Source: Acholeplasma sp. (lineage in GTDB: Bacteria; Bacillota_I; Bacilli_A; Acholeplasmatales; Acholeplasmataceae). From it: a DNA stretch of 58,043 nt. The notes beneath the pieces were generated by a model. It was not told the DNA's origin, did not search any database, and saw only the letters and a program-made list of their open reading frames with translations. Below, piece after piece: positions 42,225 to 58,043 of the stretch. The DNA is taken from positions 1 through 58,043 of the forward strand of contig QZKD01000045.1 of NCBI GenBank assembly GCA_003605085.1, given 5' to 3'. The position numbers and the translations under genes were made by a program. How positions within the stretch are numbered: position 1 is the stretch's first letter; every line of letters starts with the position of its first letter.

Positions 42225-42312
42225 GCGGACGTGGTGGAATGGTAGACACGCATGTTTGAGGGGCATGTGGCCGCGTTAGGCCGTGTGAGTTCAAATCTCA
42301 TCGTCCGCACCA
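42225..42312 (+). tRNA. tRNA-Leu, anticodon GAG
   Basis: An 88-base class II tRNA. The acceptor stem GCGGACG pairs with CGTCCGC, the anticodon stem CATGT/GCATG holds the loop TTGAGGG with anticodon GAG, the variable arm is long (about TGGCC to GGCCG) as in leucine tRNAs, and the T arm contains GTTCAAAT. CCA is encoded at 42310-42312. It is followed directly by foreign-looking DNA, so its 3' end is a likely attachment site. Confidence 0.97.
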
Positions 42313-42324
42313 TATGAAATGCAT

Positions 42325-42357
42325 AGGTTTGATACAATCGTATCAGGCCTTTTTTTG
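42325..42357 (+). terminator. Terminator after tRNA-Leu
   Basis: AGGTTTGATAC (42325-42335) pairs with GTATCAGGCCT (42340-42350, two G-T pairs) around AATC, followed by seven T residues. Confidence 0.8.
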
Positions 42358-42380
42358 CTTTAATAAGGGCTTTTTCTTAC

Positions 42381-42406
42381 TTTGATGAATGGGTTTTGAC
42401 ATCAAA
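42381..42406. repeat. Inverted repeat downstream of tRNA-Leu
   Basis: TTTGATG (42381-42387) and CATCAAA (42400-42406) flank a 12-base spacer. It lies in the 321-base gap between tRNA-Leu and the Xre gene, which holds the tRNA terminator, this repeat, the four iterons and a promoter, but no gene. It may be a recombinase arm site; that is a guess. Confidence 0.35.
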
Positions 42407-42449
42407 AGTTGTAAAAATCAAGGATAAAACTCGAGAGCATAATAGACGC

Positions 42450-42529
42450 TTACACGATTTGATTGAATTTTACACGATTACAAGTCATTTTACACGATTT
42501 GCCTTTGATTTACACGATTTGCTTATATG
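42450..42529. repeat. Four direct repeats with exact 20-bp period (iteron-like)
   Basis: TTACACGATT starts at 42450, 42470, 42490 and 42510; three copies continue as TTACACGATTTG and one as TTACACGATTAC. The remaining bases of each unit differ. A 20-bp period puts the copies on about the same face of the helix, as for protein-binding arrays. A fifth copy, CTACACGATTTG, is at 49553-49564 beyond the ImmA gene. Candidate ligands are the Xre protein or HTH peptidase of the cassette, or an element recombinase or replication protein. Confidence 0.85.
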
Positions 42530-42594
42530 AACTATCAAACAATTAATATATCTATCTAAATGTTTTGACTTTTAGTTTCAATTTTTATAAAAAG

Positions 42595-42603
42595 TGATAT
42601 AAT
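42595..42603 (+). promoter_or_regulatory. Putative extended -10 promoter of the R-M cassette
   Basis: TGATATAAT (42595-42603) is an extended -10 without a good -35, about 30 bases before the Xre start and about 75 bases after the last iteron. It would drive xre-mod-res and probably the two following genes. Confidence 0.5.
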
Positions 42604-42633
42604 AATGTTAACGATATGATGAGGAGATGTCCT

Positions 42634-42837
42634 ATGGAATATTCACAAAAAATAAAGCTTCTTAGGGAAAAAATGTTTGTCTCACAAAAAGAGCTTGCAG
42701 AAACACTAGGAGTTTCTTTTGTTTCAGTGAATCGCTGGGAGACTGGTAAATTTAACCCAACTATTAAAGCTAAAAAAAAGCTTAATCAATTATTTATTCA
42801 GTATAAAATTGCGGAGGGTAATGATGACAATAAATGA
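42634..42837 (+). CDS. Xre-family helix-turn-helix regulator, possible controller protein
   Basis: Small DNA-binding protein of 67 residues. The HTH is clear: KIKLLREKMFVSQKELAETLGVSFVSVNRWETGKFNPT. ATG 42634 follows GAGGAG at 7 bases; upstream ATG codons lack a site. It overlaps mod by 14 bases, which suggests it is made together with the methyltransferase and may time expression of Mod and Res. It could bind the iterons just upstream. It could also be a phage-type repressor. Confidence 0.85.
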   Translation: MEYSQKIKLLREKMFVSQKELAETLGVSFVSVNRWETGKFNPTIKAKKKLNQLFIQYKIAEGNDDNK

Positions 42838-44512
42838 CAACAAATTAATTTTTGAACAAAAAAAGAAACAATTTATAGAAAGAATAGATTTAATTGCAAA
42901 AGAATCATTTAATAACGAGCAAAAAGAAACTGCAAAACAAATTATTGAATCAGCTAATGAAAATAACATAGATGCAGTATATCAGCTTGTTACCCAAAGG
43001 GTAAAAACCGGATTTGTTTTTGATGCTGCACCAGAAGTTAATCATAATTGTGTTGCTTTGATTTCAGAAAATGAGTCTTTAAGCATAACATCTACTGAAG
43101 CGGTCCATAACGAGCACTCGCTTATAATAGGAGAAAATTACGACACATTAAAAAATCTTCTTTGTACATATATTAACCCTTCAACAGGTGAAGGTATGAT
43201 TGATATAATCTATATCGATCCTCCATACAATACTGAATCTGCAAAAAAAGATGGCAATGATTATAAGGAGGAAGTAGAAGCAGCTAAATTCGTTTATAGA
43301 GATAAGTATACTAGAGACGGTTGGTTGAACATGATGAACGAGCGACTTAAGTTAGCAAAGAAAATCTTATCTAATCGCGGAGTCATATATATTTCAATTG
43401 ATGATGGGGAACAAGGCTATTTAAAGGTTTTGTGTGATGAAATATTTGGTGAAAAGAATTTCATTGCTAATTTAATATGGAAATGCAGAAGTTCATTATA
43501 TTATACTGAACCGCTAATATCTATCCAAACTGAATACATTTTAGCCTATGCCAAAGATAAGAGTAAATTTTCACTAAAAACGTTTGATAAGGATAATATA
43601 GATGGTGATGAAAAAGCTCTTGAAGGTTTCTTTTTCAATAGAGTTAAAAAACTATACGATGATGAAGATTATTCAAATAATGATAATGATCCAAGAGGCC
43701 CTTATAAAACATCAGGAAAAGTAAGAAACGATGGAAGACCAATTTATACAGTGACTTCACCTACGGGTGTTCAACATACTGCAGCTTGGGTGTATTCTCC
43801 TGAAGTTTTTCAGCAATTAATTGATGATAATCAAATATATTGGGGTGTTGATGGTAGTGCACAACCGAGAAAAAAATCATATTTTAAAGACTACATAGGA
43901 AAAGTATCTTCAAATCTTCTCTATGATGAATTTGTGATTACAAAAAATGGCGATAAAACTAAAAAGGAAAAAATATTTGAAGTAGGGACTACTGAAAGTG
44001 GCACAAAAGAATTAAAAGACATAGTAGGGGAGAACAAATTTCCTTATCCAAAACCTGTTGAGTTAATCAAATATCTTATAAGTCTATATCCAGTAAATGA
44101 TTGTACTGTATTAGATTTTTTTGCAGGATCTGGAACTACTGGCCAATCGGTTATGGAATTAAATGAAGAAGACGGTGGAAAAAGAAAATTTATTTTAACT
44201 ACAAACAATGAAAACAATATTGCGAATGATGTAACACTTGAAAGACTGTTTAGAGTCATTCATGGTAAAGGTTCAAAAGGAGAACATATCAGTTGGAAAT
44301 ATTCAAATACAGTTCCGTCATTGATAAATAATTCAGTTAGAGTGTTTGACGTAGAATACCATGAACTGCAACTTTATGACTTTGAAAAGGCTAACAAGTT
44401 GATTCCGATTGCTGAAATACAATTCAAAAAACTAAACCCAAATTACAAGATTAAGGATCGTTTTGATATATATAATGAATTAGCTGCGCTAAATCCATAT
44501 AAGAAGGTGTAA
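42824..44512 (+). CDS. mod: Type III restriction-modification DNA methyltransferase (Mod)
   Basis: N6-adenine DNA methyltransferase subunit, also the sequence-recognition subunit of a type III system. Motif IV DPPYNT (about residue 131) comes before motif I DFFAGSGTTGQSV (about 430), the beta-class order of Mod proteins. The region between (about 230-410) should be the target recognition domain. GGAGGG sits 5 bases before ATG 42824; an ATG one codon earlier is less well spaced. It overlaps xre and is 3 bases from res. Codon use is strongly AT-biased compared with the core genes. Confidence 0.93.
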   Translation: MTINDNKLIFEQKKKQFIERIDLIAKESFNNEQKETAKQIIESANENNIDAVYQLVTQRVKTGFVFDAAPEVNHNCVALISENESLSITSTEAVHNEHSLIIGENYDTLKNLLCTYINPSTGEGMIDIIYIDPPYNTESAKKDGNDYKEEVEAAKFVYRDKYTRDGWLNMMNERLKLAKKILSNRGVIYISIDDGEQGYLKVLCDEIFGEKNFIANLIWKCRSSLYYTEPLISIQTEYILAYAKDKSKFSLKTFDKDNIDGDEKALEGFFFNRVKKLYDDEDYSNNDNDPRGPYKTSGKVRNDGRPIYTVTSPTGVQHTAAWVYSPEVFQQLIDDNQIYWGVDGSAQPRKKSYFKDYIGKVSSNLLYDEFVITKNGDKTKKEKIFEVGTTESGTKELKDIVGENKFPYPKPVELIKYLISLYPVNDCTVLDFFAGSGTTGQSVMELNEEDGGKRKFILTTNNENNIANDVTLERLFRVIHGKGSKGEHISWKYSNTVPSLINNSVRVFDVEYHELQLYDFEKANKLIPIAEIQFKKLNPNYKIKDRFDIYNELAALNPYKKV

Positions 44513-44515
44513 TAT

Positions 44516-46798
44516 ATGGAATTGACAAAAATACAAAAGGAAGCTGTTGAAAAAATTCTAGGTTATTACTCTCCTATAGAAAAAGTAAATGTAGATTTTA
44601 AAGCACCAACTGGTAGCGGAAAAACTTTGATGGCATCGTGGATAATCTCATTGATAATTGAAAGAAACATAAAAGAAAAATTTGTTTTTGTTATTGCGAC
44701 ACCATCTTCATCAAGTTTACCGTTTTTCTTTGAGCAAAAATTAAACGTATATAAAAAAGATTTACCATATTCAAAGTTTGAAGTTGAATATATTGAGTCA
44801 CCCTCATCATCTCAAGCAGACAAAACTGAAGCTAATGCCACGATAAAGGTAGAATCTAATAAAGTTTACATATTTGGTAAATCAACGTTTGGTAAAGGAA
44901 GAATTTTTACTGAAAGACATATCATTGATGATTTTGTTGACGAGGTCAAAAATACAGGACATAAACTTATATATATCCGTGATGAAGCTCATATTGGTGA
45001 TATAACAAGGACAGATAGCGAAACTAAGATGTTTGAAGAATTAATGCAAAACCACTCAGATTTCATTATAAAAATGACAGCAACACCAAACTTGAGTGAT
45101 TCAACAGTAAAATTCGTACAAATATTAGAATCAGACATAAATGATGGTTATAAAAATGAGAATAAATGGCTTTTAAAAACACAACCAACTTTGCTTTTAA
45201 ACGATAGTATGAATGAAGATGCTTTATTAGAAAATGCAATATTAGAGTTCAAAAAGCTAAAAGAATCATATAAAACACTTGAAAAGGATAATATTTTTAT
45301 TCATCCAGCATTATTAATACAAGTAAGTAATGAACCTTCGAACACAAATGATAAGAAGATTTTTTTTGATGCTTTAGATGATGTTAAAAAAAGATTAGAT
45401 TATCATGGCTTATCATGGGTAAAATATTTTGGTGATAGTGACAAAGAATCAAATTCTGTATTAAAAGATAAATTTACACTTGATGAAATAACCCAGATTG
45501 ATCATCCCACTGATGTAGTGCTTTTTAAAATTGGTCCATCGACAGGGTGGGATATACCAAGAGCTTGTATGCTTTTACAATTAAGAAAAGTATGCTCAGA
45601 CAAGTTAAATATTCAAACTATTGGTCGAATTAAAAGAAATCCTTATCCAAACTTAGCAAAAAACTCCGTTACTGACAAATATTATATATACTCGAATACT
45701 CCAAAAATTGATGAAGACTTTACTTATTATCAATACCAAGTAAAAGAAGCACTTATTGGTGAAGAGTTTCCAGTTATTGAGATTATGAACAAGAAAGATT
45801 TCAGGATTTCTGTTCAAAAACCATCCATAACAAAAGATTTACTGAAATTCATTGATGATAACAAATACATTCTTGTTCAAGAACTTCAGAAATACTTTGT
45901 TAAAGATAATGGAGTAGATATTTTTCGAAAAGAATTATATGAAGTCAATGGGGCAATGGTATACACATCTGTAAGCAATCCATTTATTTTTTTGAAAGAC
46001 CTTAAACGACTTATTGATTCACGAAGTAACATATATGAATATTGTAATGAAGCGATAGAAAAGTCGCTAAAGTCTGTATTTAAAGATGTTCTGTTGTATC
46101 AAAATGTGAAATTACAAATTGAACATATTCAGTACATACTATTTCACAATCATACGACAGAAATTATTGGAATTATTAAGAAAAATAGTCCGTTTATATC
46201 AAAATACAAAGTATCAATGGTTCCATATGAGCCAAAACAATATGTTGAAGTATATGATTCCGTTATGGGGGAAGGTATTATAGAGAATAGCGATAATACT
46301 TATTTATTTGATGTAGTAAAGAATAATTCCACAAGAAATCTCCAACCTTTAGATTCTACCAATTCGGAACCGGTAGTATTTAGATTCTTAAGTAGAGAAA
46401 TAAACGCAATAAATGAATATATTGGAGACAAGGTGAGAATATGGAGTAAAAACTTAAGAAACAGTTCTATAAGTGGTGATTATTTAGACAAAACCCATAC
46501 ATTCCATAAAAGTTTTTTTGATTTTATTATTAAGTTCACCAATGGAAATCATCTATATATTGAAGTAAAAGGAAAAAATGATATTAATCCACAAAAAACT
46601 GCATTATTAAAAGAGGCATATTCAGATTATTTTAAAAAAAGACAAATAAGTCTTTTTAGTCATCCTCTTGTTATTAGCATATGGATAGTTGATGGTCAAA
46701 ATATAACTCACGAATCTTATTATGATAAAAATTTAGTTAATGAAGAATTAAACAACTTATCAGTCAAAGATATGTTTAAAAAACTAGCATTAATGTAA
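44516..46798 (+). CDS. res: Type III restriction enzyme Res subunit
   Basis: ATP-dependent restriction subunit that works with Mod. The SF2 motor has Walker A APTGSGKT (about residue 31), the DEAH box RDEAH (about 156) and MTATPN. A motif near 340 (KIGPSTGWDIPRA) and the following QTIGRIKR are helicase motifs V and VI. The C-terminal nuclease is a PD-(D/E)XK fold: FDFIIKFTNGNHLYIEVKGK, about residues 670-690. The length of 760 residues is a little short for the family. AAGGTG precedes the ATG. It should cut unmethylated DNA after translocation. Confidence 0.93.
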   Translation: MELTKIQKEAVEKILGYYSPIEKVNVDFKAPTGSGKTLMASWIISLIIERNIKEKFVFVIATPSSSSLPFFFEQKLNVYKKDLPYSKFEVEYIESPSSSQADKTEANATIKVESNKVYIFGKSTFGKGRIFTERHIIDDFVDEVKNTGHKLIYIRDEAHIGDITRTDSETKMFEELMQNHSDFIIKMTATPNLSDSTVKFVQILESDINDGYKNENKWLLKTQPTLLLNDSMNEDALLENAILEFKKLKESYKTLEKDNIFIHPALLIQVSNEPSNTNDKKIFFDALDDVKKRLDYHGLSWVKYFGDSDKESNSVLKDKFTLDEITQIDHPTDVVLFKIGPSTGWDIPRACMLLQLRKVCSDKLNIQTIGRIKRNPYPNLAKNSVTDKYYIYSNTPKIDEDFTYYQYQVKEALIGEEFPVIEIMNKKDFRISVQKPSITKDLLKFIDDNKYILVQELQKYFVKDNGVDIFRKELYEVNGAMVYTSVSNPFIFLKDLKRLIDSRSNIYEYCNEAIEKSLKSVFKDVLLYQNVKLQIEHIQYILFHNHTTEIIGIIKKNSPFISKYKVSMVPYEPKQYVEVYDSVMGEGIIENSDNTYLFDVVKNNSTRNLQPLDSTNSEPVVFRFLSREINAINEYIGDKVRIWSKNLRNSSISGDYLDKTHTFHKSFFDFIIKFTNGNHLYIEVKGKNDINPQKTALLKEAYSDYFKKRQISLFSHPLVISIWIVDGQNITHESYYDKNLVNEELNNLSVKDMFKKLALM

Positions 46799-46849
46799 GC
46801 TAAATACTAAAGAATATTTATCCACTTTAGTGAGATACAGGAGGAAATT

Positions 46850-47443
46850 ATGGGAAGATGGAGTAATGATTTTTACATAATCAATTTGAGAGAATTACCG
46901 GAAAGCATCCTTTCTAAAATTCAAGAGTTTTCTGAAAAAGTTTGTATGGAAACATATGATCGTTTTTCATATGATTTTGAACGCAGAGTTGAGACTATCA
47001 AAATAGGAAAAATTGCTGAAGAGGTTTTCGCCAAATTTATGAAAGATGAATATGAGATGACACTTTCTATAAATTATGAAATATATGAAGGGACATCTAA
47101 TGTTGATGAAGATGATTTTGAGATTAATGGATATCAAATTGATATTAAATCATCAAAGGATACGTATGAAGAAGGGATAGAGAGTTGTTATAATAGATTC
47201 AATTTTCCTGTACCCTATGATCAAGGGATAAAAGACTTAACTATCTCAATTTTATACACGCATGATTTATCTAATTATGTTATTAGCAGTGCAATATTCA
47301 AAGAGGATTATTTACGAAAAAGTCGTATTGGGAGTCTACCTGTAGGAAATGGAGTATTTAAAAATTTTTATTTATGCAAACTAACTAATGGAATAAAAGT
47401 AAGAAATGCAATCGAGTACATTTTAAAGTTTCCAAAAAAATAA
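46850..47443 (+). CDS. Uncharacterised PD-(D/E)XK-like protein in the R-M cassette
   Basis: Protein of 197 residues that I do not recognise as a named family. A nuclease-like pattern is visible: E57 in a GKIAEEVF helix, D89, then D98-I-K100 in INGYQIDIKSSK, the order E...D...(D/E)XK seen in restriction-like nucleases. The rest is alpha/beta without signal peptide or membrane segment. It follows res by 51 bases with AGGAGG upstream and no terminator between, so it is probably in the same operon. It may be an accessory nuclease that adds a second cutting activity, or a DNA-binding relic of one. Function is inferred from motif and context. Confidence 0.6.
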   Translation: MGRWSNDFYIINLRELPESILSKIQEFSEKVCMETYDRFSYDFERRVETIKIGKIAEEVFAKFMKDEYEMTLSINYEIYEGTSNVDEDDFEINGYQIDIKSSKDTYEEGIESCYNRFNFPVPYDQGIKDLTISILYTHDLSNYVISSAIFKEDYLRKSRIGSLPVGNGVFKNFYLCKLTNGIKVRNAIEYILKFPKK

Positions 47444-47500
47444 TCTAAATTATTGAATTGATCAATCATCAGATTTTGCTTATTCAGTGGGGTGTATATA

Positions 47501-49423
47501 TTGGAAAAAGCAGCTAACTCTTTTCTAGAATATCTTGGAACTGATAGATTTTATGACAAAATTTACAAATCTATTTTTTCATGGTGCACCGGTAATAAGG
47601 ATTTATTGCTTGAGAAAATAACTAAATATAACATCAGTTACATAGGTCATATCGAAGAGGACATCGAACTTGATTACATTAACGTGTGGATTGACAGCAA
47701 GGAAAATACTAAAATCGAGTTTGATCTAGCTGTTGAAGTATCTGTTGATGTCGAAGGGGTATCTGGCAAACATCATGATAGAGACTTATATAATACTAAT
47801 ATTTGGGTTATGGTCTACTGTTCAGGCTCATTGATAAATAGACTAAATGATTTCAGAATTTTAGGAATCGAAGAATTCAATAAGTCAAAGCCTAAAAAAC
47901 CACTATCAGGGGATTTTGTGCCATATATTAAGAAGAGTGAATATGATCAATATGCTAATGAAATACTAGAAAAATACTACTTCAACCACCATCCAGAAGC
48001 AAGAGTTAAACCTATACCAGTCAATGTTGATGAGCTGGCGATAAATATGGGATTAAGTGTTTGTGATACATCCATATCGAAAAATAGAAGTATATTTGGA
48101 CAAGTTTATTTTGCTGATGCAGAGGCTAAGATATATAATACTGATACATTGGCTTATGAAAAAAGACAGATTAAGAAAGATACAATACTAGTTGATAGTG
48201 AGGCTGCATATCTAAGGTCTTATGGGTCTAGAAATATGACGATTGCTCATGAATGTGTACATTCTTATTACCATAGACACGCTTTTTTATTTGCACAAAT
48301 GTTTAATGAGAATCTTCATTTTATTCAATGTCAAGTTAATGGTGTAATGAAAAATGGTGAATCAAATACAACAGCTGATTGGATGGAAATTCAAGCAAAT
48401 GGACTTGCACCTTATATACTTATGCCAAAAGAATCTTTTGAAGCTTATGCAAATAGTTTATTTGAACACTATAATCAATTCAGTCGAATAGGATCAAATA
48501 GTATTAATCGGATTATTGATGAACTTGCTAAAACCTATGAGGTTACTATTTATGCAGCTAGAAAAAGATTGATTGATTTAGGTTATGAACAAGCAATTGG
48601 TGCTTATAATTGGGTAGATGGTCATTACGTAAGACCTTACTCCTTTAAAAAAGGATCTCTTGCTAACGATGAAACTTATACTGTTAGCTATAAAGATGTT
48701 TATAATAAAGTTGTTACTAATCCTATTATAGCTATGTCTGTTCTAATGAACGATTATGTTTTTGTAGAAAACCATTTGTGTATCAATCATCCAAACTATA
48801 TTGAAAAAGATCAGAATGGAGATCTTATATTATCAGATTATGCATTGGTTCATATGGATGAGTGCTGTGTTAAATTCAAATATCAAACGATACGAGGATT
48901 TAATGAAGGTTCTGAATTAGGTTTGATTTGTTATCTCAGTAGAGATACAAGTAAAGAGATTGAATTTGATTTGGAACTATCAAAATTACCTGAGAAGAAG
49001 ATAGATGAATCTCTTTTTAAGGAAAGATACAGAATTCACACAGAGAATGTTGCAGAGGTTGCTAAAGCAATAAATGACATGACATTCGGTGAAATAATCA
49101 CTTATTTAATGAAATATCTTGATATAAAACTTTATGAACTTGAAATCGACTCAGGAGTTAATGAAAGAACAATAAGGCGATATACAAGTGGTGAAAACAA
49201 AAAACCAGATAAAAGAACAGTCGTGGCTCTTTTAAGAGCACTAAATCTTCCTCCAAGAATATGCGATATTGCAGTTAGACAAGCAGGTATATCATTTAGA
49301 AATGGAGATAAAGAAGATAATGCTCTGCTTAATGCAATGATGACTCTAAGAAATGGAAGTGCAAATGATGCCAATAGATTTATGAAATTGGCTGGGTTTG
49401 AACCGTTAAATAAAGAAGAATAA
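47501..49423 (+). CDS. ImmA/IrrE-type metallopeptidase with C-terminal HTH
   Basis: Large protein of about 640 residues. The zinc peptidase site is H250-E-C-V-H254 in TIAHECVHSYYH, with E296 (DWMEIQANGLAPYILMP) as third ligand, the ImmA/IrrE pattern. The N-terminal 150 residues are unknown. A middle region (about 380-500) carries two cysteine-containing stretches (NHLCINHP and DECCVKF). Residues about 540-575 form an HTH (LYELEIDSGVNERTIRRYTSG) near the C terminus. The start is probably TTG 47501 with GGGGTG 6 bases upstream; GTG 47492 is an alternative. ImmA-type peptidases cleave repressors in phages and conjugative elements. Here it ends the R-M operon, so it may control or trigger the system. 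Confidence 0.75.
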   Translation: MEKAANSFLEYLGTDRFYDKIYKSIFSWCTGNKDLLLEKITKYNISYIGHIEEDIELDYINVWIDSKENTKIEFDLAVEVSVDVEGVSGKHHDRDLYNTNIWVMVYCSGSLINRLNDFRILGIEEFNKSKPKKPLSGDFVPYIKKSEYDQYANEILEKYYFNHHPEARVKPIPVNVDELAINMGLSVCDTSISKNRSIFGQVYFADAEAKIYNTDTLAYEKRQIKKDTILVDSEAAYLRSYGSRNMTIAHECVHSYYHRHAFLFAQMFNENLHFIQCQVNGVMKNGESNTTADWMEIQANGLAPYILMPKESFEAYANSLFEHYNQFSRIGSNSINRIIDELAKTYEVTIYAARKRLIDLGYEQAIGAYNWVDGHYVRPYSFKKGSLANDETYTVSYKDVYNKVVTNPIIAMSVLMNDYVFVENHLCINHPNYIEKDQNGDLILSDYALVHMDECCVKFKYQTIRGFNEGSELGLICYLSRDTSKEIEFDLELSKLPEKKIDESLFKERYRIHTENVAEVAKAINDMTFGEIITYLMKYLDIKLYELEIDSGVNERTIRRYTSGENKKPDKRTVVALLRALNLPPRICDIAVRQAGISFRNGDKEDNALLNAMMTLRNGSANDANRFMKLAGFEPLNKEE

Positions 49424-49476
49424 CAAGTGGACAATACCTGTCCGAATATTTTTTAGAAAATTTATATTAGTTATAT

Positions 49477-49501
49477 AGAGGACTTTTTGTCCTCTTTTTT
49501 T
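49477..49501 (+). terminator. Terminator of the R-M/ImmA cassette
   Basis: AGAGGAC (49477-49483) pairs with GTCCTCT (49489-49495) around TTTTT and is followed by T residues. It lies just after the ImmA-type gene and sets the end of the cassette transcript. Confidence 0.9.
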
Positions 49502-49582: not shown

Positions 49583-49614
49583 TACGATGAATTAAGAAAA
49601 AGCTATCTTGATTC

Positions 49615-49654
49615 GTACTTCACAACCTTAGCTAAGTTGGTCACAATGAAGTAC
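49615..49654. repeat. Interrupted 40-bp inverted repeat
   Basis: GTACTTCA (49615-49622) pairs with TGAAGTAC (49647-49654). Inside, CAAC (49623-49626) and GTTG (49636-49639) pair, and TTAG can pair with CTAA at the centre. It could be an operator, a cruciform recombination site, or a leader hairpin of the following operon. Confidence 0.55.
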
Positions 49655-49781
49655 AGCAAACAATTAAATCATGCAGTTCGATCTTTTGTGAGGAGAGGTC
49701 TGCAAATTGAAATGGAGTTATTCATCTAACCCTTCTTTTTGCGACCCCTTTGAACTGCCTACATGACTGAGAGAAGAATAT

Positions 49782-49822
49782 CTCCATTTTTAGAAAACAA
49801 ATCTAAATGGAGGTATTTTTTT
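49782..49822 (+). promoter_or_regulatory. Hairpin that hides the ribosome site and ends in a T run
   Basis: CTCCATTTTTAGA (49782-49794) pairs with TCTAAATGGAG (49802-49812), with two bulged T residues. The right arm contains most of the GGAGG ribosome site (49809-49813), and a run of T (49816-49822) follows up to the ATG. The same structure could stop transcription and block translation of the first gene of the phage-type operon. Confidence 0.7.
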
Positions 49823-50407
49823 ATGAAGCTAACAAAAGCAGAAAAGAATCAAAACCCTAAGTTTTATGGTTATGGAAGTTTAGAGCAACTTCAAAGCGAT
49901 TCAGATAATACATTGACACACTGGATTCCTTATAAGGATGCAGATGGAGATTTAAGGTTCATTCCTTGTGATGAGGAGTATTTTCACTTTCACAGAAATG
50001 ATGTTCGAAATGAAAGACGTAGAAGAGATATCGAATCACGATGTTTGATTCCATCAGAAAAGTTTGGATTGGTGAAATGTCGTGCTGATTGTAGCTTGTG
50101 TCCAAAGGTAAGAGACGGCCTTCCTATCTCTATTGATTACATGCGCGAGAATTACGATTTCGATTTCAAGGACGATTCCTATGAAGAACATCAAGAACAA
50201 TTCAAGGAACAAGAACAAAGTGACTTCATTTGGAATCTCGTCAGTGAGCTTAATGAAACAGATCAACTGATTTTGAAATATTTCAACGAAGGAAAAACTG
50301 ATGCTGAAATAGCTACAGAACTTAATAAGGCAAGAAGCACCATACAAGAACGCAAAACCAAATTAATCATGATGCTTAGAGAAAAATATGAGAAAAATAA
50401 AAAATAA
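49823..50407 (+). CDS. Sigma-region-4-like HTH protein of the mobile element
   Basis: Protein of 194 residues. The C-terminal quarter (about 140-190) is a sigma-70 region 4-type HTH: NETDQLILKYFNEGKTDAEIA, then NKARSTIQERKTKL. The N-terminal part holds CRADCSLC, a possible zinc knuckle, and a charged linker. The start at 49823 has GGAGG upstream, hidden in the hairpin described above; a longer frame would need an unsupported start. It heads the replication module, so it may be an early transcription regulator. Similar proteins occur in phages and conjugative elements of Bacillota. Confidence 0.75.
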   Translation: MKLTKAEKNQNPKFYGYGSLEQLQSDSDNTLTHWIPYKDADGDLRFIPCDEEYFHFHRNDVRNERRRRDIESRCLIPSEKFGLVKCRADCSLCPKVRDGLPISIDYMRENYDFDFKDDSYEEHQEQFKEQEQSDFIWNLVSELNETDQLILKYFNEGKTDAEIATELNKARSTIQERKTKLIMMLREKYEKNKK

Positions 50408-50486: not shown

Positions 50487-50666
50487 ATGAAGAAAGAACC
50501 AAAAGCCGATAAGCCTTATCTGACGGATAAGGATTTAGTCGAAACATTACTGCTTATTAGCGAGACGACTAAAACATTGGCACTGGAAGTGATGTTGCTT
50601 CCAGAAGAAACGGATAGTAAAGAAGGAGGGATTACAGATGTCAAGAAGTCCAACGATCCACAGTAG
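50487..50666 (+). CDS. Small acidic phage-type protein
   Basis: A 59-residue protein with no family that I recognise. It starts at ATG 50487 after AAAGGAGG at 7 bases. It is charged, with a central helix (LVETLLLISETTKTLALEVMLL written here only in part) and no membrane or signal segment. It overlaps the DUF2800 gene by 29 bases, so it is translated in the same operon. Small proteins at this place often precede the nuclease gene in related modules. Confidence 0.6.
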   Translation: MKKEPKADKPYLTDKDLVETLLLISETTKTLALEVMLLPEETDSKEGGITDVKKSNDPQ

Positions 50667-51819
50667 AAAGTATAGCCCGAGCAAGAGTAGTACATGGTTA
50701 AACTGTCCACTTAGTACGCTCTTAAATGATGGATCAAGCCAGGAAACCAATCCACAAGCTGAGTTTGGAACACAGTGCCATGAATTAGGTGCAGCACTCA
50801 TTGGTCAGTCACTCAATTTAATCGACTATGACAGTGAATTAAAACCGATTGAAGAAGTCATCAAAGATTTGGATATGTACTCAGAAGAGATGCAAGAAAT
50901 TGCTGATGGGTACGCAGATTTCGTTATTCAGACCATTGAGTTTGATAAGAAGAGAACAGATACAGAACCACTCATCGTTATCGAGCAGCATCTTGATATG
51001 GATTTTGATGATGATGCAGGAGGAACCTTAGATTGTGGAATCATATCATCTCTGGGTGGTGGAACGCTCACAGTGATTGACTTGAAAACAGGTCGCACAC
51101 CAGTTTATGCATTTGATAGTGAATCAGGACTGTTTAACTCTCAACTAGGTATCTATGCACTCTACTTTTACAAATCCTACAAGGATTTATATCCAATCAA
51201 AAAAATCAGACTTGTCATTTATCAACCAGTTATTAACAACACAAACGACTATGAGATGCCGATTGAAGAGTTACTTCAGTTTGAATCAAATGTACTCGTA
51301 CCAGCAGTGAAAAGAACAAAAGTAGAAAACCCTGAAGCGCATCCAGGTAAGTACTGTAGATACTGCGCAGGAAAGGCGATATGTGCGAAGCGAGCTGAAG
51401 CTAACAAATTAGTCATGCAAGCGTTAAAAAAACCTGTTTCAACTATGATAGACGCTGATATCGAAGCATTACTACCACACTTGGATGAAGTTATTCAATA
51501 TGCAAAAGATGTGATGGAGTTTGCTATCAAGAAAGCACTCAATGGTCACAAGTGGTCTAAGTACAAACTCGTTCATACCAAAGGATCGAGAAAGATTACT
51601 GATGAAGAAGGTGTCATCAAAGCATGTGAACAAGTAGGCATCGATCCTTATGCAACAAAGAAGGTAGCTGGAATTACAGAGTTAACCAAAAGAATAGGTA
51701 AGAGTAAAGTTGATGCCCTTATCGGAGCTTACATCAATATGCAACTTGGCTCATTAGTTTTAGTACCAAAATCAGATCCTCGTGAAGAGGCAAATATTAT
51801 CGAAGAAGGAGATAAATAA
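50638..51819 (+). CDS. DUF2800 RecB/Cas4-like phage nuclease
   Basis: Predicted PD-(D/E)XK exonuclease of 393 residues, used in phage recombination. The N-terminal part has SSTWLNCPLS and GTQCHELGAALIG; the active site is GTLDCGII and IDLKTGR. A cysteine cluster, KYCRYCAGKAICAKR, resembles the iron-sulphur cluster end of Cas4/AddB nucleases. AAGGAGGG precedes the ATG. It is followed within 4 bases by the Sak4-like ATPase, so the pair may work as an end-resection and annealing system. Confidence 0.85.
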   Translation: MSRSPTIHSRKYSPSKSSTWLNCPLSTLLNDGSSQETNPQAEFGTQCHELGAALIGQSLNLIDYDSELKPIEEVIKDLDMYSEEMQEIADGYADFVIQTIEFDKKRTDTEPLIVIEQHLDMDFDDDAGGTLDCGIISSLGGGTLTVIDLKTGRTPVYAFDSESGLFNSQLGIYALYFYKSYKDLYPIKKIRLVIYQPVINNTNDYEMPIEELLQFESNVLVPAVKRTKVENPEAHPGKYCRYCAGKAICAKRAEANKLVMQALKKPVSTMIDADIEALLPHLDEVIQYAKDVMEFAIKKALNGHKWSKYKLVHTKGSRKITDEEGVIKACEQVGIDPYATKKVAGITELTKRIGKSKVDALIGAYINMQLGSLVLVPKSDPREEANIIEEGDK

Positions 51820-51822
51820 AAC

Positions 51823-52791
51823 ATGTTAAAAATTATTGAAGGTAAAGAAAAACGTCCACTAAAGATTGTCATTTATGGTCCAGAAGGAATTGGTAAATCA
51901 ACCTTTGCTAGCCAGTTTCCAGATCCGTTATTTATTGACACCGAAGGTGGTACAAGCAACTTAGATATTAGAAGAATCAAGTGCAATAAATCGTGGGATG
52001 AATTGATCACAGTTGTAAAAGAGATTATTACTAATCCAACGATATGTAAAACGGTTGTTTTAGATACCGCAGACTGGGCTGAATCATTATGCACAAATGC
52101 AGTATGTGAGAAGTATCGGAAGAACAACATAGAAGATTTTGGCTATGGGAAAGGTTATGTCTACTTAGTTGATGAGTTTTCAAAACTACTCACTCTGATG
52201 GATCAACTGATCGAAGTCGGTATCAATGTGGTTATTACAGCACATGCAAAACCTAGAAAGTTTGAACTCCCAGAAGAACAAGGCGCATTTGATCGCTATG
52301 AAATGAAACTATCTAAACAAGTCGCACCACTTATCAAAGAATGGTCTGATGCACTTTTCTTTGTGAACTACAAAATCTATGTCATTACAACAGAAAACAA
52401 CTCCAAGAAAGCTCAAGGCGGAAAGCGTGTTTTATACACAACACATAATCCAACCTATGATGCCAAGAACAGATATGACTTGCCAGAAGAACTCGAACTC
52501 AGTTTTTCATCCATCGCACACCTATTTGAAGATCAAGAATTTACAAAGCCTGAAGTACCCTTTCCTGATCCCAAAGATATTACTAGTATTTCAATTGTAA
52601 CAAAACTAGAAAAAATGATTGAAGATTCGGATATATCAGCGATTGAATTACAACAGGTGGTTGCAGCTAAAGGTCATTATCAAGAAACAGAACCGATTAC
52701 CAATTATTCAGACGATTTTATAACCAGATGGATCATCCCTAATTGGAAGAAGATCGTAGAAACTATTAAAAAAAATAAAGGAGAACAATAA
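51823..52791 (+). CDS. Sak4-like RecA-fold ATPase (phage nucleotide-binding protein)
   Basis: Single-strand annealing or strand-exchange ATPase of 322 residues. Walker A is GPEGIGKST (19-27); a Walker B-like segment is KTVVLDTADW; the C-terminal third is helical and variable. No membrane segments. AAGGAGAT is upstream at 10 bases. The gene lies between DUF2800 and DUF669, the common order of phage recombination modules. Family assignment is by motif and neighbourhood. Confidence 0.82.
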   Translation: MLKIIEGKEKRPLKIVIYGPEGIGKSTFASQFPDPLFIDTEGGTSNLDIRRIKCNKSWDELITVVKEIITNPTICKTVVLDTADWAESLCTNAVCEKYRKNNIEDFGYGKGYVYLVDEFSKLLTLMDQLIEVGINVVITAHAKPRKFELPEEQGAFDRYEMKLSKQVAPLIKEWSDALFFVNYKIYVITTENNSKKAQGGKRVLYTTHNPTYDAKNRYDLPEELELSFSSIAHLFEDQEFTKPEVPFPDPKDITSISIVTKLEKMIEDSDISAIELQQVVAAKGHYQETEPITNYSDDFITRWIIPNWKKIVETIKKNKGEQ

Positions 52792-52793
52792 CC

Positions 52794-53249
52794 ATGATAG
52801 ATAACAAAGATATGTTGATGGATTGGAACGATGCCATCGAAGAAGACGGTCAGGAGTATGTTTTACTACCTGAAGGTGATTACAATTTTACAGTTACAAA
52901 TTTTGAACGCGGAAGATTTCCTGGTGGACCAAAAGTACCCGCTTGTAATAAAGCTACAATTACAGTTCAAGTGGATACCAAAGAAGGTATTGCAACCGTT
53001 AAGTTTGATTTGCTTTTATATCGTTCTTTAGAATGGCGTATTTCATCATTTTTTAGATGTATTGGTCAGAAGAAACATGGTGAAAAGTTAACGATGGACT
53101 GGAATAAAGTGATTGGCTCTAAAGGTCGCGCTCATTTTAAACAAAGATCATACACTAACAATCAAGGTGAAGAGAAGTTTACAAATGATATTGATCGTTT
53201 CATCGATTACAACGAAGAGTTCTTTTTTCCAGACGATCTTCCATTTTAG
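52794..53249 (+). CDS. DUF669 probable single-stranded DNA-binding protein
   Basis: Protein of 151 residues of the DUF669 type. The N-terminal half is beta-rich (EYVLLPEGDYNFTVTNFE), and the C terminus is acidic and ends in FFPDDLPF, like the tail of bacterial SSB that recruits partners. It starts 2 bases after the Sak4-like gene. It probably coats single strands for the annealing ATPase; this is inferred from neighbours and the SSB-like tail. Confidence 0.82.
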   Translation: MIDNKDMLMDWNDAIEEDGQEYVLLPEGDYNFTVTNFERGRFPGGPKVPACNKATITVQVDTKEGIATVKFDLLLYRSLEWRISSFFRCIGQKKHGEKLTMDWNKVIGSKGRAHFKQRSYTNNQGEEKFTNDIDRFIDYNEEFFFPDDLPF

Positions 53250-53261
53250 GAGGGATCAGTC

Positions 53262-54839
53262 ATGGTATTAAGACCTTATCAAAATGAAGCGGTAAGTGCA
53301 ATTCAACATGAGTGGAATCAAGGACATCAAAGAACGCTATTAGTCCTTCCAACTGGCACTGGTAAAACAGTCGTGTTTTCAAAGGTTGTTGAAGAGGAAA
53401 CGAAAAACGGTAGTAACGCACTAATTCTCGCTCATCGTGGAGAGTTGCTCGATCAAGCTTCAGAGAAATTATTAGAAACGAGTGGATTGGATTCAGCTTT
53501 GGAAAAGGCTGAGTCTAGTTCCATCGGGTCAAAAAAGCGAGTGACTGTTGCATCAGTACAAACTTTATCACAAGAAAAAAGACTTTCTGCATTTGCTAAG
53601 AATCATTTTAAGACCATTGTTGTAGATGAGGCGCATCATTCGATGAGTGATACTTATCAGCGCATACTTACCCATTTTGATGGTGCTAATGTGCTCGGTG
53701 TTACAGCAACGCCTGATCGCTCTGATCAGAAAAGTCTAGGAAAGTATTATGATTCAAAAGCCTATGAATATTCACTACATCAAGCGATAAGAGAAGGTTA
53801 TCTTTGCCCGGTTAAAGCACAGATGATTCCACTCGAACTCGATATTCACAGTGTTAGCGTATCAAATGGTGATTATGCAGTAGGTGAAATAGGATCCGCC
53901 TTAGAGCCTTACTTAAACCAAATAGCACTCGAAATGCTTAAATATTGCAAAGGCAGAAAAACTGTTGTGTTCTTACCGTTAGTGAAGACATCTCAAAAGT
54001 TTTGTGAACTACTTAATTTACATGGTATTAAAGCAGCAGAAGTTAATGGAAACAGCACAGATCGTGATGAAATCTTAGCTGACTTTGAAGCAGGTGAATA
54101 TGATGTGTTATGTAATTCTATGCTTTTAACTGAAGGTTGGGACTGTCCAGCTGTGGATTGCATCATTGTGCTAAGACCAACTAAGATTAGAAGTCTCTAT
54201 CAACAAATGGTAGGTCGTGGGATGAGACTCCACCCAGGAAAAGAAGAGTTACTATTACTTGATTTTCTATGGATGACAGAACGCCATGATTTATGTAGAC
54301 CGTCCGCACTGATTTCTAAGGATGCAGAACTTGCAAAACGTATCGATCAAAAGATGATGGATAAAGAAAGTGGTATTGATTTACTTGCTGCTGAAAAAGA
54401 AGCTGAAAATGATGTGATACAAGAACGTGAAGATGCACTTGCCAGAGAACTAGCAGCCATGCGTAGAAAGAAAACCAAACTCGTCGATCCGATTCAATAT
54501 GCTTTCTCTATTGCAGCAGAAGATTTAGCAAATTATGAACCTGCATTTATGTGGGAGATGGGACCGGCAACTGAAAGACAACTTGATTACTTAGAAAAGC
54601 ATGGTATTTATCCAGAAGCAGTAACGAGTTGTGGGATGGCAAGCATGCTCATTGAAAAACTTAAGAATAGACAAATTGAAGGCTTAGCTACACCAAAACA
54701 GATCCGTTTCTTGGAACGTTATGGATTCTTACATGTTGGTATGTGGGCATTTGATGCAGCGAGCAAAATGATTACACGTATCGCAGAAAACAACTGGTTT
54801 TTACCAAGAGGTATCAATGCTACAAGTTATCAACCGTAG
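53262..54839 (+). CDS. SF2 DEAD/DEAH-box helicase of the phage module
   Basis: DNA helicase of 525 residues. Motifs are in order: LPTGTGKT (about residue 28), VVDEAHHS (about 122), TATPDRSD (about 147), and QMVGRGMR as motif VI (about 320). The C-terminal 150 residues are helical and probably contact DNA or the primase. AGGAGG precedes the ATG. It lies directly before the primase gene in the same operon, so it most likely unwinds DNA during phage replication. Confidence 0.9.
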   Translation: MVLRPYQNEAVSAIQHEWNQGHQRTLLVLPTGTGKTVVFSKVVEEETKNGSNALILAHRGELLDQASEKLLETSGLDSALEKAESSSIGSKKRVTVASVQTLSQEKRLSAFAKNHFKTIVVDEAHHSMSDTYQRILTHFDGANVLGVTATPDRSDQKSLGKYYDSKAYEYSLHQAIREGYLCPVKAQMIPLELDIHSVSVSNGDYAVGEIGSALEPYLNQIALEMLKYCKGRKTVVFLPLVKTSQKFCELLNLHGIKAAEVNGNSTDRDEILADFEAGEYDVLCNSMLLTEGWDCPAVDCIIVLRPTKIRSLYQQMVGRGMRLHPGKEELLLLDFLWMTERHDLCRPSALISKDAELAKRIDQKMMDKESGIDLLAAEKEAENDVIQEREDALARELAAMRRKKTKLVDPIQYAFSIAAEDLANYEPAFMWEMGPATERQLDYLEKHGIYPEAVTSCGMASMLIEKLKNRQIEGLATPKQIRFLERYGFLHVGMWAFDAASKMITRIAENNWFLPRGINATSYQP

Positions 54840-54849
54840 GAGGATTTAA

Positions 54850-56847
54850 ATGGACAATTTACTTGAAGCTTTAAAACAGATTGATGTATCAAAAATATCT
54901 TATCAAGAATGGATAAATATAGGCATGGCACTTAAAGCTGAAGGATATGATTGCTCGGTATGGGATAACTGGAGTAAAAATGATGCTCGCTATAAACAAG
55001 GTGAGTGTGATAGAAAATGGAGGAGCTTTGCTGGCTCCTCTAATCCCATAGCCGGAGGAACGATTATAAAAATGGCAAAAGACGCAGGATGGGTTCCTTA
55101 TGTTCATGAAAACGGTGGACTTATGGAATGGGATGACATCATCGAATACGATGGTGATGGCATGATTTACGATCCTACTGTTAGTATGACTCCAACCGAA
55201 CAACTTATAAAATATCTTGAAATATTATTTAAAAGTAATGAATATGTTGCGTATGTAACAACGGATGTTTGGCAGAATGCAGATGGCAAATGGATGCCAG
55301 GTAGAGGCCAGTATGACAGAACAGCTAAAGAATTAATTGATTTACTTAAAAAACATCCAGATGATATCGGTGCCGTGATTGGTGATTGGAAAGATGAGAG
55401 TGGGGCATGGATTAGGTTTAATCCGGTTGATGGTAGTGGTGTTAAGAATGACAACATTACAAGATTTTCCTATGCATTAGTTGAATCAGACAATATACCC
55501 ATTCCAGAACAAGATGCAATCTATCGAAAGTTCGAACTTCCTATCGCTTGTCTAGTACATAGTGGCAGTAGAAGTCTACATGCTATAGTTAGAGTTGATG
55601 CAAATGATGCAGAAGAATATCGTAAGCGTGTGGAATACTTATATGGTTTCCTAGATAAGAATGGACTCAAAGTTGATACAGCTAATCGAAATCCATCAAG
55701 ATTATCACGATTACCTGGTGTGACTCGAAATGGCATTATTCAAACATTGGTGGATACTAACATAGGTAGACGTAATTGGAATGAATGGTTAGATTTTGCT
55801 GAAGGTATTGTCGATGAAATGCCTAGACTTGATTCACTTGATGAAGAATTATCACATTTACCTCCTCTTGCACCTGAACTTATTGAAGGGGTTGTTAGAG
55901 TTGGACATAAAATGCTTATTTCAGGCTCATCTAAAGCAGGGAAAAGTTTCTTATTAATGCAACTAGCTATCGCATTATCTGAAGGTGGTAAGTGGCTAGG
56001 TTTTCAGTGCAAGAAATCAAAAGTCCTCTATGTGAATTTAGAAATAGATAGAGCTAGCTGCTTGCATCGTTTTGACAAGATTTATAAAGCATTAAAACTT
56101 GATCCTAAGCATAGCGGAAATATCAAAGTTTGGAACTTACGTGGTCGAGCGATGCCTTTAGATAAACTTGTACCGAAGCTTATAAGAAAAGTTGCAAATC
56201 AAGGCTTCGATGCAATTATCATAGACCCTATATATAAAGTAATTACAGGAGATGAAAACAATGCTTCTGAAATGGGAGCTTTCTCTAATCAATTTGACAA
56301 AATTTGTAATGAAACAGGATGTGCAGCCATCTACTGTCATCATCATTCTAAAGGCTCTCAAGGCTACAAAAGAGCGATGGATAGAGCTTCTGGTTCGGGA
56401 GTATTTGCGCGTGATCCAGATGCACAGCTCGATATGATTCAACTTGAAACTACCGATGAGTTTATGGCTCAATACGCAGATGTACAAACATCTACAGCTT
56501 GGAGACTTGAAAGTAGTCTAAGAGAATTTGGTAACTTCAAGCCAGTTAATTTTTGGTTTGAGTATCCGATTCATAAACTTGATGATAAAGGTATATTAAC
56601 AAAACACTATGCAGAAGGTGACCCTAAAGCAAATCTAGAAAAAAGTGGTAAGAGAAATCAATCTACCGAGTCAAGAAAAGATGAATTTGATGCTGCATTT
56701 GATATTAACATGGAAGACGACGGCACTTGTAAAGCATCTGTGCTTGCAGAATATTTAGGCATAGCCGAGCGTACTGTCAGATCTCGTGTTACAGAATTTC
56801 AAGAAGAGTACGAAACAAAAAAAGGAATCATAACGCGTAAGGAATGA
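54850..56847 (+). CDS. Phage primase-ATPase with PriCT domain and C-terminal HTH
   Basis: Replication protein of 665 residues. Residues 1-78 are a PriCT-type domain (ISYQEWINIGMALKAEGYD, WSKNDARY). The next 250 residues look like an archaeo-eukaryotic-type primase or RepB-like fold (SLHAIVRVDANDAEEY, LKVDTANRNPSRLSRLPG). A RecA-like ATPase follows with SGSSKAGKSF near residue 358 and IIDPIYKV. The last 45 residues form an HTH (VLAEYLGIAERTVRSRVTEF). AGGAGG precedes the ATG. It could initiate and drive replication of the element. Confidence 0.85.
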   Translation: MDNLLEALKQIDVSKISYQEWINIGMALKAEGYDCSVWDNWSKNDARYKQGECDRKWRSFAGSSNPIAGGTIIKMAKDAGWVPYVHENGGLMEWDDIIEYDGDGMIYDPTVSMTPTEQLIKYLEILFKSNEYVAYVTTDVWQNADGKWMPGRGQYDRTAKELIDLLKKHPDDIGAVIGDWKDESGAWIRFNPVDGSGVKNDNITRFSYALVESDNIPIPEQDAIYRKFELPIACLVHSGSRSLHAIVRVDANDAEEYRKRVEYLYGFLDKNGLKVDTANRNPSRLSRLPGVTRNGIIQTLVDTNIGRRNWNEWLDFAEGIVDEMPRLDSLDEELSHLPPLAPELIEGVVRVGHKMLISGSSKAGKSFLLMQLAIALSEGGKWLGFQCKKSKVLYVNLEIDRASCLHRFDKIYKALKLDPKHSGNIKVWNLRGRAMPLDKLVPKLIRKVANQGFDAIIIDPIYKVITGDENNASEMGAFSNQFDKICNETGCAAIYCHHHSKGSQGYKRAMDRASGSGVFARDPDAQLDMIQLETTDEFMAQYADVQTSTAWRLESSLREFGNFKPVNFWFEYPIHKLDDKGILTKHYAEGDPKANLEKSGKRNQSTESRKDEFDAAFDINMEDDGTCKASVLAEYLGIAERTVRSRVTEFQEEYETKKGIITRKE

Positions 56848-57980: not shown

Positions 57981-58043
57981 ATGCCCAAATTTAAAGTGGT
58001 AATAAACTATCAAAATGGCGATACTGATGAGCTTGATGAGTTA
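57981..58043 (+). CDS. Partial gene cut by the window edge
   Basis: Twenty-one codons from ATG 57981, after AAAGGGGA at 7 bases. The start of the protein reads MPKFKVVINYQNGDTDELDE and is too short to assign. It probably belongs to the same mobile element. Confidence 0.55.
   Translation, partial: MPKFKVVINYQNGDTDELDEL

Follow-up and report, generated by a model that had tools for sequence, protein, structure and literature searches.

An exchangeable restriction slot beside a probable one-protein lysogeny switch at the predicted left end of an Acholeplasma prophage

What holds together five tightly packed genes that combine a type III restriction-modification pair with a small regulator, a nuclease-like protein and a metallopeptidase? 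The question arises on Acholeplasma sp. contig QZKD01000045.1, which was analyzed up to its end at 58043 (the window, 58,043 nucleotides), with the segment 42634-49423 and its flanks as the object of study. The open reading frame (ORF) list placed xre, mod, res, a 197-residue gene and a 640-residue gene uninterrupted on the + strand, and a consensus scan of the window found no + strand terminator within 42350-49428. An initial annotation had described these genes as one defence cassette; it was correct that all five are present, intact and co-directional and that a terminator follows at 49477-49495. The cassette itself did not survive comparison, as the peptidase belongs to a phage family (PHROG 4031) that lies beside different restriction systems in many phages. 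We instead favor, with a probability of roughly 0.7, a prophage left end at tRNA-Leu made up of xre, an exchangeable slot that here holds type III cargo, and then an M78 peptidase-helix-turn-helix (HTH) regulator of the early genes. The finding spans both phage genes and cargo. The five genes are:

42634 to 42837, + strand: xre, small Xre/Cro-type HTH protein (Pfam HTH_3, 2.9e-9)
42824 (ATG) to 44512, + strand: mod, type III N6/N4 DNA methyltransferase (Pfam N6_N4_Mtase, 3.2e-36; PADLOC MTase_III, 2.2e-77)
44516 to 46798, + strand: res, type III helicase-nuclease (Pfam ResIII, 2.6e-13; PADLOC REase_III, 1.5e-81)
46850 to 47443, + strand: 197-residue PD-(D/E)XK-like protein, linked to type III mod-res (motif E57, D89, D98-x-K100; relative in locus L015)
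47501 to 49423, + strand: M78 (ImmA/IrrE) peptidase with C-terminal HTH, putative phage regulator, PHROG 4031 (Pfam, PHROG, HTH profile and structure model)

The 640-residue protein, for which an alternative GTG start lies at 47492, matched PHROG 4031 over nearly its full length (9.6e-136) and Pfam Peptidase_M78 (PF06114) at 1.4e-6, with 28.5 bits against a cut-off of 22. Its relatives were found in 46 phage records, 38 of them Streptococcus. The HExxH motif reported in the initial annotation is HECVH at 250-254, and both it and E296 were invariant in 25 of 25 aligned rows, window included. As a single sequence the HTH fell below the Pfam cut-off (17.3 of 23); by profile it matched C.BclI, the closest entry in the PDB sequence set (E 9.8e-7). 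The structure model (predicted local distance difference test, pLDDT, 81) had an extra N-terminal beta-rich region. Judged by sequence, this is a phage family, and by analogy the protein is probably the phage's own switch protein, a single-chain repressor with its own peptidase that resembles a fused ImmA-ImmR switch. Related phages have short M78 ORFs of ~220-270 aa at the same position before the DUF2800 block, which fits the reading of a fused switch. We infer protease activity and DNA binding for this protein, as we do nuclease activity for the 197-residue protein. Separately, the section of the peptidase profile that covers the C-terminal HTH is matched by ~335-aa proteins in four genus genomes (L154 578-1579, and L155-L157), and by eye the L154 protein resembles a macro domain fused to this HTH.

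Neighborhoods of the peptidase gene were counted from 78 loci (8 IMG/VR or phage loci, 10 genome loci and 60 further IMG/VR loci). Fourteen were dropped for falling below the length or score limit, and the remaining 64 long-peptidase loci formed 43 clusters at 90% identity; a further 13 clusters were set aside for having neither a methyltransferase candidate nor 4.5 kb of upstream sequence, and 30 were counted. A crude motif scan placed a methyltransferase candidate upstream in 23 of these 30. Pfam identified all 22 candidates checked as DNA methyltransferases, the 23rd (L008) being the window's own phage. The seven clusters lacking a candidate have a LlaJI-type endonuclease (L063), GmrSD (L080), a methyltransferase piece (L006), resistance genes (L004), a Rib-type surface protein (L070) or, by eye, host-like genes (L033, L035). 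Home-made methyltransferase profiles marked the upstream side in 23/29 clusters versus the downstream side in 1/35 (Fisher p 7e-11), a contrast that is inflated because the profiles were trained on upstream genes of the same loci. Among eight further peptidase loci met through DUF2800, restriction genes were present in five (L172, L174 and L192 by profile, L165 and L201 by Pfam); the other three (L180, L188, L191) have less than 2 kb upstream. In two Streptococcus suis phage records (L004, L006), antibiotic-resistance genes sit in the same slot, and in L006 the piece of N6 methyltransferase lies directly before the peptidase gene.

The restriction genes upstream of the peptidase gene vary among relatives and include types I, II and III. 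In L009-L011 the peptidase gene precedes the same kind of early genes as in the window, with no match to DUF2800, Sak4 or helicase in L010. Upstream of it, L009 has a DUF4357 gene (GIY-YIG by eye) before the contig is cut at 1.2 kb, L010 a C5 methyltransferase (Pfam), a second one (motif) and a Vsr-like gene by eye, and L011 an N6/N4 methyltransferase (Pfam) and a second one (motif). L010 also contains a S-adenosylmethionine (SAM) riboswitch inside the phage contig (18868-18955). Two Ca. Heliusvirales records, L003 and L005, have methyltransferases upstream, accompanied in L005 by a LlaJI-type endonuclease. A 3432-bp stretch that includes the peptidase gene is 97% identical between loci L028 and L029, which also have a common left end (84% over 535 bp), yet between left end and peptidase L028 has a type I methyltransferase set and L029 a type III system. 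The genomes that carry this 97% identical segment are assigned to different bacterial families (f9 and f19). Linkage of the peptidase gene to mod-res was rejected, as the gene adjoins different restriction systems across phages.

Counting the window's own genome, 4 of 20 genus genomes carry the phage as judged by its Sak4 gene. In G006, xre (83%) and the early genes (Sak4 98%) are retained, and the slot contains a 1357-aa helicase-methyltransferase and ABC-3C components; in G008, the slot of the same phage holds an ABC-3C set and a type I system, whose HsdM and HsdR were recognized by Pfam; in G018 the phage is cut by the contig end. By profile, none of the three gave a peptidase match. The xre ORF opens at 42616; a plausible start within it is the ATG at 42634, which a GGAG precedes. 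The 83% identical copy lies at the left end of the G006 phage (L141), where none of the other four genes (mod, res, the nuclease-like gene, the peptidase) found a match, and a 50% identical copy is found in L165. On this comparison, xre is a left-end phage gene that a relative in the same genus retains alongside wholly different cargo.

The cargo was also met apart from xre and the peptidase. The mod-res-197-residue trio recurs in L015, a goat-reticulum Bacilli contig, at 69%, 59% and 59% identity, and no match to xre or the peptidase was found in this 7471-base contig, which has 422 nt before mod and ~2.5 kb after the third gene. Of the two extra genes that the initial annotation proposed to check against mod-res neighborhoods, the 197-residue gene goes with mod-res in L015 and the peptidase-HTH gene is not tied to it. 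The type III assignment itself was borne out by the PADLOC matches above. Mod and Res are ordinary in the domain content of their sequences: mod, which overlaps xre by 14 nt, has DPPY132 and then FAGSG433, the type III order of DPPY before FxGxG, and res, an SF2 helicase, has GSGKT33, DEAH156, TATP188, GRIKR370 and D669...E683-V-K685, with the C-terminal PD-(D/E)XK nuclease residues D669, E683 and K685 invariant in 3 of 3 aligned sequences. Type III cleavage needs two head-to-head asymmetric sites. Matches to res in phages (4 records) and plasmids (11 records) were partial and distant, and viral contigs yielded the window's own phage only. In a 395-genome class sample, 18 of 19 other matches of this short Res branch have in-frame TGA, as in mycoplasma-like genomes, and no significant third gene was found at these 19 loci within the flank examined.

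By gene order, mod, res and the third gene make up a three-gene type III restriction cargo. E57, D89, D98 and K100, the residues picked out in the initial annotation, are invariant between the window protein and L015, its sole clear relative. The protein had no match in Pfam (E<=0.1), NCBIfam, PHROG or the PDB sequences and one marginal PADLOC match (0.014), and its AlphaFold2 model, built from two sequences, was uninformative (pLDDT 33). The nuclease label comes from the motif, and we regard the protein as a likely extra nuclease. PD-(D/E)XK-like neighbors were seen at five type III loci: the window, L015, L176 and L029 (where it follows a divergent type III res) and L246 (where it directly precedes a type III mod). 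The look-alikes in L176, L029 and L246 share G-(K/D)-x-A-(E/K), D-(D/N)-F and K-S-(S/T) elements. A nine-sequence comparison gave E 9e-27 for L029-L246, 0.001 for L246-L176 and 0.027 for L246-window, and profile comparison of the window/L015 pair with the other look-alikes gave E 0.03-0.12, which is not significant against decoys. The third genes of the window, L246, L029 and L176, the four in the Pfam scan, had no match there. Significant homology among all five was not found, and one common family is unproven.

These third genes were rarely met elsewhere. The 197-residue protein had no phage or plasmid match and found only itself in 20 genus genomes, itself and two partial matches (E 3e-4 and 5e-4) in 392 phylum genomes, no more than the window's own phage in viral contigs, and L015 in genome contigs. 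The L176 look-alike likewise had no phage or plasmid match, found only itself in viral contigs and gave two partial weak matches in 390 genomes. With the L029 look-alike, L246 was found in phages, nothing in plasmids or viral contigs, and only the query itself in 336 genomes; the L246 look-alike found only itself in phages and nothing in plasmids.

A repressor with its operators would be expected to leave a trace in the DNA next to its gene, and the region after the peptidase-HTH stop contains such candidates:

49429 to 49443, no strand: operator-like palindrome 1, GGACA-N5-TGTCC (GGACAATACCTGTCC), just after the peptidase-HTH stop
49477 to 49495, + strand: intrinsic terminator (consensus scan), conserved in L008-L011
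49540 to 49554, no strand: operator-like site 2, an imperfect second copy beyond the terminator

The pattern GGACA-N5-TG(T/C)C(C/T) occurs in the window only at 49429 and 49540. Among 31 loci, the pair was found in L009, L010, L011 and the duplicate records L177 and L178; L181 had one distant single match, and the remaining loci had none. The clade L174/L180/L165 has a different palindrome at the same place, with the best form TTCGTAAC-N2-GTTACGAA, and the DNA further on is alike. The palindrome after the peptidase stop is repeated 100-150 bp further along, in a sequence that differs from one protein clade to the next. Within the first 45 bp after the stop, 28 of 52 cluster representatives had a palindrome at shuffle p<=0.05 (100 letter shuffles), some of these being terminators. 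After exclusion of 26 of the 52 loci (no usable palindrome, a terminator-like palindrome or too short a flank), the second copy of a locus's own palindrome scored a mean of 0.81 versus 0.64 in unrelated loci (26 loci; Mann-Whitney p 6e-13, which is optimistic because several of the 14 winning loci are related to each other), and the own second copy beat every unrelated locus in 14 of 26. We consider the paired clade-specific palindromes to be predicted operators, the trace that a repressor of this kind should leave.

The surroundings of the segment are consistent with a prophage. They comprise:

42225 to 42312, + strand: tRNA-Leu (GAG) (ARAGORN), likely the attachment side of the prophage
42313 to 42615, no strand: phage/host left junction region, with a terminator at 42325-42350 and four TTTACACGATT-type repeats at 42450-42519
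49608 to 49761, + strand: possible DUF2800-type RNA leader (Rfam RF02960, sub-threshold at 30.5 bits against a gathering score of 60.2, E 0.044)
49763 to 50407, + strand: sigma-region-4-like phage early protein (library matches)
50638 to 56847, + strand: phage replication block of DUF2800, Sak4-like, 151-aa protein, helicase and primase (phage families, PHROG)

All genes to the right of the peptidase gene, from the sigma-region-4-like gene through the primase, match phage families, and the order of the replication block is the same in L009 and L011. For the RF02960 leader, 0 of 8 relatives reached the gathering score. On the left, positions 42321-42520 match the DNA preceding xre in the G006 phage at 79%. 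Matches to the fakA-tRNA region that reach the tRNA end were found in 13 other genus genomes: in 7 different DNA follows, in 3 the contig itself runs out no more than 1 nt from the tRNA end, and the other 3 stay similar for ~45-65 nt past it. In L159, a contig with the same phage, the first 67 nt are 85% like the tRNA 3' end plus terminator. We take the segment to be a prophage's left end, lodged at tRNA-Leu. The 11-bp repeats and the tRNA terminator are candidate markers of the exact attachment site; the terminator is also found 3' of other tRNA genes in the genus. The four TTTACACGATT-type repeats upstream of xre have 20-bp spacing, and like repeats lie after tRNA-Ser on another contig of the same genome (L013 8800-8860) and in other genus genomes.

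From gene content, slot swapping, co-conservation with the phage block and paired clade-specific palindromes, which are read directly from the DNA, we infer a mechanism in which DNA binding, proteolysis, an inducing signal, expression and protection would each have a part. The slot between the left-end xre and the early lytic genes would be exchangeable and here filled by mod, res and the PD-(D/E)XK-like third gene. The M78-HTH regulator at the end of the slot would bind, through its HTH, the two palindromes that flank the terminator after its own gene and so silence, in the lysogen, the early promoter of the sigma-like gene, DUF2800, Sak4 and what follows. On an inducing signal, the peptidase may cut its own protein or a partner and end repression, in the way that ImmA acts on ImmR. 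The restriction cargo would shield both the lysogenic cell and its prophage from other phages.

Several observations weigh against this reading of a prophage left end with its own peptidase-repressor. The integrase and the right prophage end are unseen because the contig ends at 58043, which leaves both outside it, and the G006 phage (L141) sits elsewhere than at tRNA-Leu, with no tRNA in the stretch examined. A Foldseek search of the 640-residue model against the PDB gave nothing below E 0.001, and its matches were weak HTH or unrelated structures, DdrO HTH among them (E ~0.3). Besides the inflated profile contrast and the optimistic palindrome statistic, the cruder motif scan marked 4 of 43 representatives downstream (L008, L010, L011, L065; the flanks are unequal), and for the second palindrome, 12 of the 26 loci were equalled or outscored by at least one unrelated locus. 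The main fact against it is the alternation with ABC-3C genes. From the 80 of 559 DUF2800 loci used (L190, L195 and L208 yielded no row), we counted 12 close relatives in which at least ~4.4 kb precedes DUF2800; two of them, L177 and L178, duplicate L009 and L008. The peptidase gene is present in six and missing from six, and an ABC-3C component replaces it in five of the latter (L164, L170, L176, L181, L183; Pfam) as well as in L141 and L159. The ABC-3C genes at the peptidase position are on the reverse strand and match Pfam MC2, CTD6, CTD11 and DUF2326 (L141 9654-12376; L176 5526-8709). As half of these relatives lack it, the peptidase gene is not indispensable and such phages must use another repressor: either the repressor of those phages lies elsewhere, or the peptidase is a slot gene of other use. 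Because five of the six peptidase-less relatives (L170, L176, L181, L183, L185) still have restriction-type genes, the restriction cargo is tied to the slot and not to the peptidase gene.

If the peptidase-HTH gene were instead a second defence or anti-defence gene of the slot, an alternative to ABC-3C systems, the 6/12 alternation would fit, as would the arrangement in G006 and G008, and the best PADLOC match of the protein is capP, a peptidase of cyclic-oligonucleotide-based antiphage signaling systems (CBASS; 1.7e-11). This explanation is unlikely in our judgement, given the clade-specific paired palindromes on the early promoter side, the persistence of the peptidase where the slot has resistance or other genes (L004, L070), and the position before the DUF2800 block that the long M78-HTH and short M78 ORFs share. 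The five-gene defence system of the initial annotation, in which the peptidase removes Xre and so releases restriction or abortive infection, draws on the single strand, the tight spacing and the lack of an internal terminator. We hold it to be very unlikely and already largely refuted by the neighborhoods: the peptidase gene also adjoins type I and II systems and non-restriction cargo, L015 has the trio without xre or peptidase, and L141 has xre without the other four genes. Nothing that we found points to Xre as a substrate of the peptidase, although no test was aimed at this. Least probable of the readings considered is that the protein controls the adjacent restriction operon in the manner of a C protein rather than the phage early promoter. 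In its favor, 28 of 39 representatives have a same-strand gene as their closest upstream neighbor, which in 17 of these 28 overlaps or lies no more than 20 bp away (with the first start codon taken as the start), and C.BclI is the closest HTH; however, the palindromes lie downstream, before the sigma-like gene, at the only two window positions with the pattern, and the restriction type changes while the peptidase gene stays.

The frequency of a same-strand upstream gene also makes read-through from the restriction operon into the repressor possible, which is the boldest part of a wider proposal. According to this proposal, widespread single-chain peptidase-repressors would control lysogeny in many Firmicutes phages through clade-specific paired operators, the repressor being transcribed from the end of an exchangeable restriction operon, and some type III systems would form a subtype with a third PD-(D/E)XK subunit. 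We offer it tentatively and, taken as a whole, doubt it more than we believe it. If true, the phage would tie lysogeny to the expression of its own restriction genes. A third gene next to type III systems hints at an uncharacterized partner in an old enzyme class.

Among the titles and abstract openings listed, preprints and most subscription papers being outside the scope, we found nothing on this slot, on a fused M78-HTH phage repressor with paired operators, or on a third type III gene. L003 and L005, labelled Ca. Heliusvirales, have the same peptidase gene next to methyltransferases, as a link to Ca. Heliusviridae (PMC9226167). That paper names nine shared genes, and the link drawn here is through the label and the peptidase gene; in the main text of PMC9226167 the word "restriction" occurs twice, both times about data access. 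The EcoP1I and EcoP15I type III enzymes resemble the cargo in having Mod and Res with the motifs sought, and differ from it in that here a 760-aa Res of a short branch is joined by the additional PD-(D/E)XK-like third gene.

The ImmR/ImmA switch of ICEBs1 and related phages pairs an M78 metallopeptidase with an Xre-type HTH repressor. Both there and here, such a peptidase and an Xre-type HTH are found at the boundary of lysogeny and early genes, whereas here they are parts of one chain of ~640 aa that has the HTH close to its C terminus and, in the model, the extra N-terminal region. In IrrE/PprI-DdrO, an M78 peptidase acts on an HTH repressor and the two are separate proteins; the combination of peptidase and HTH is alike, and DdrO HTH is among the weak structural matches, but here both parts are in one chain. 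Prophage defence hotspots of the P2/P4 kind are fixed phage slots with changing defence cargo. The slot described here is alike in this respect and differs in belonging to Firmicutes phages, including Ca. Heliusvirales and phi-SsUD.1 records, in the dominance of restriction, and in bordering the peptidase-HTH gene. Together, these comparisons replace a supposed new defence system with a testable general rule, namely that a single phage slot takes up restriction systems of types I, II and III next to what is probably a one-protein lysogeny switch, for which operators are predicted.

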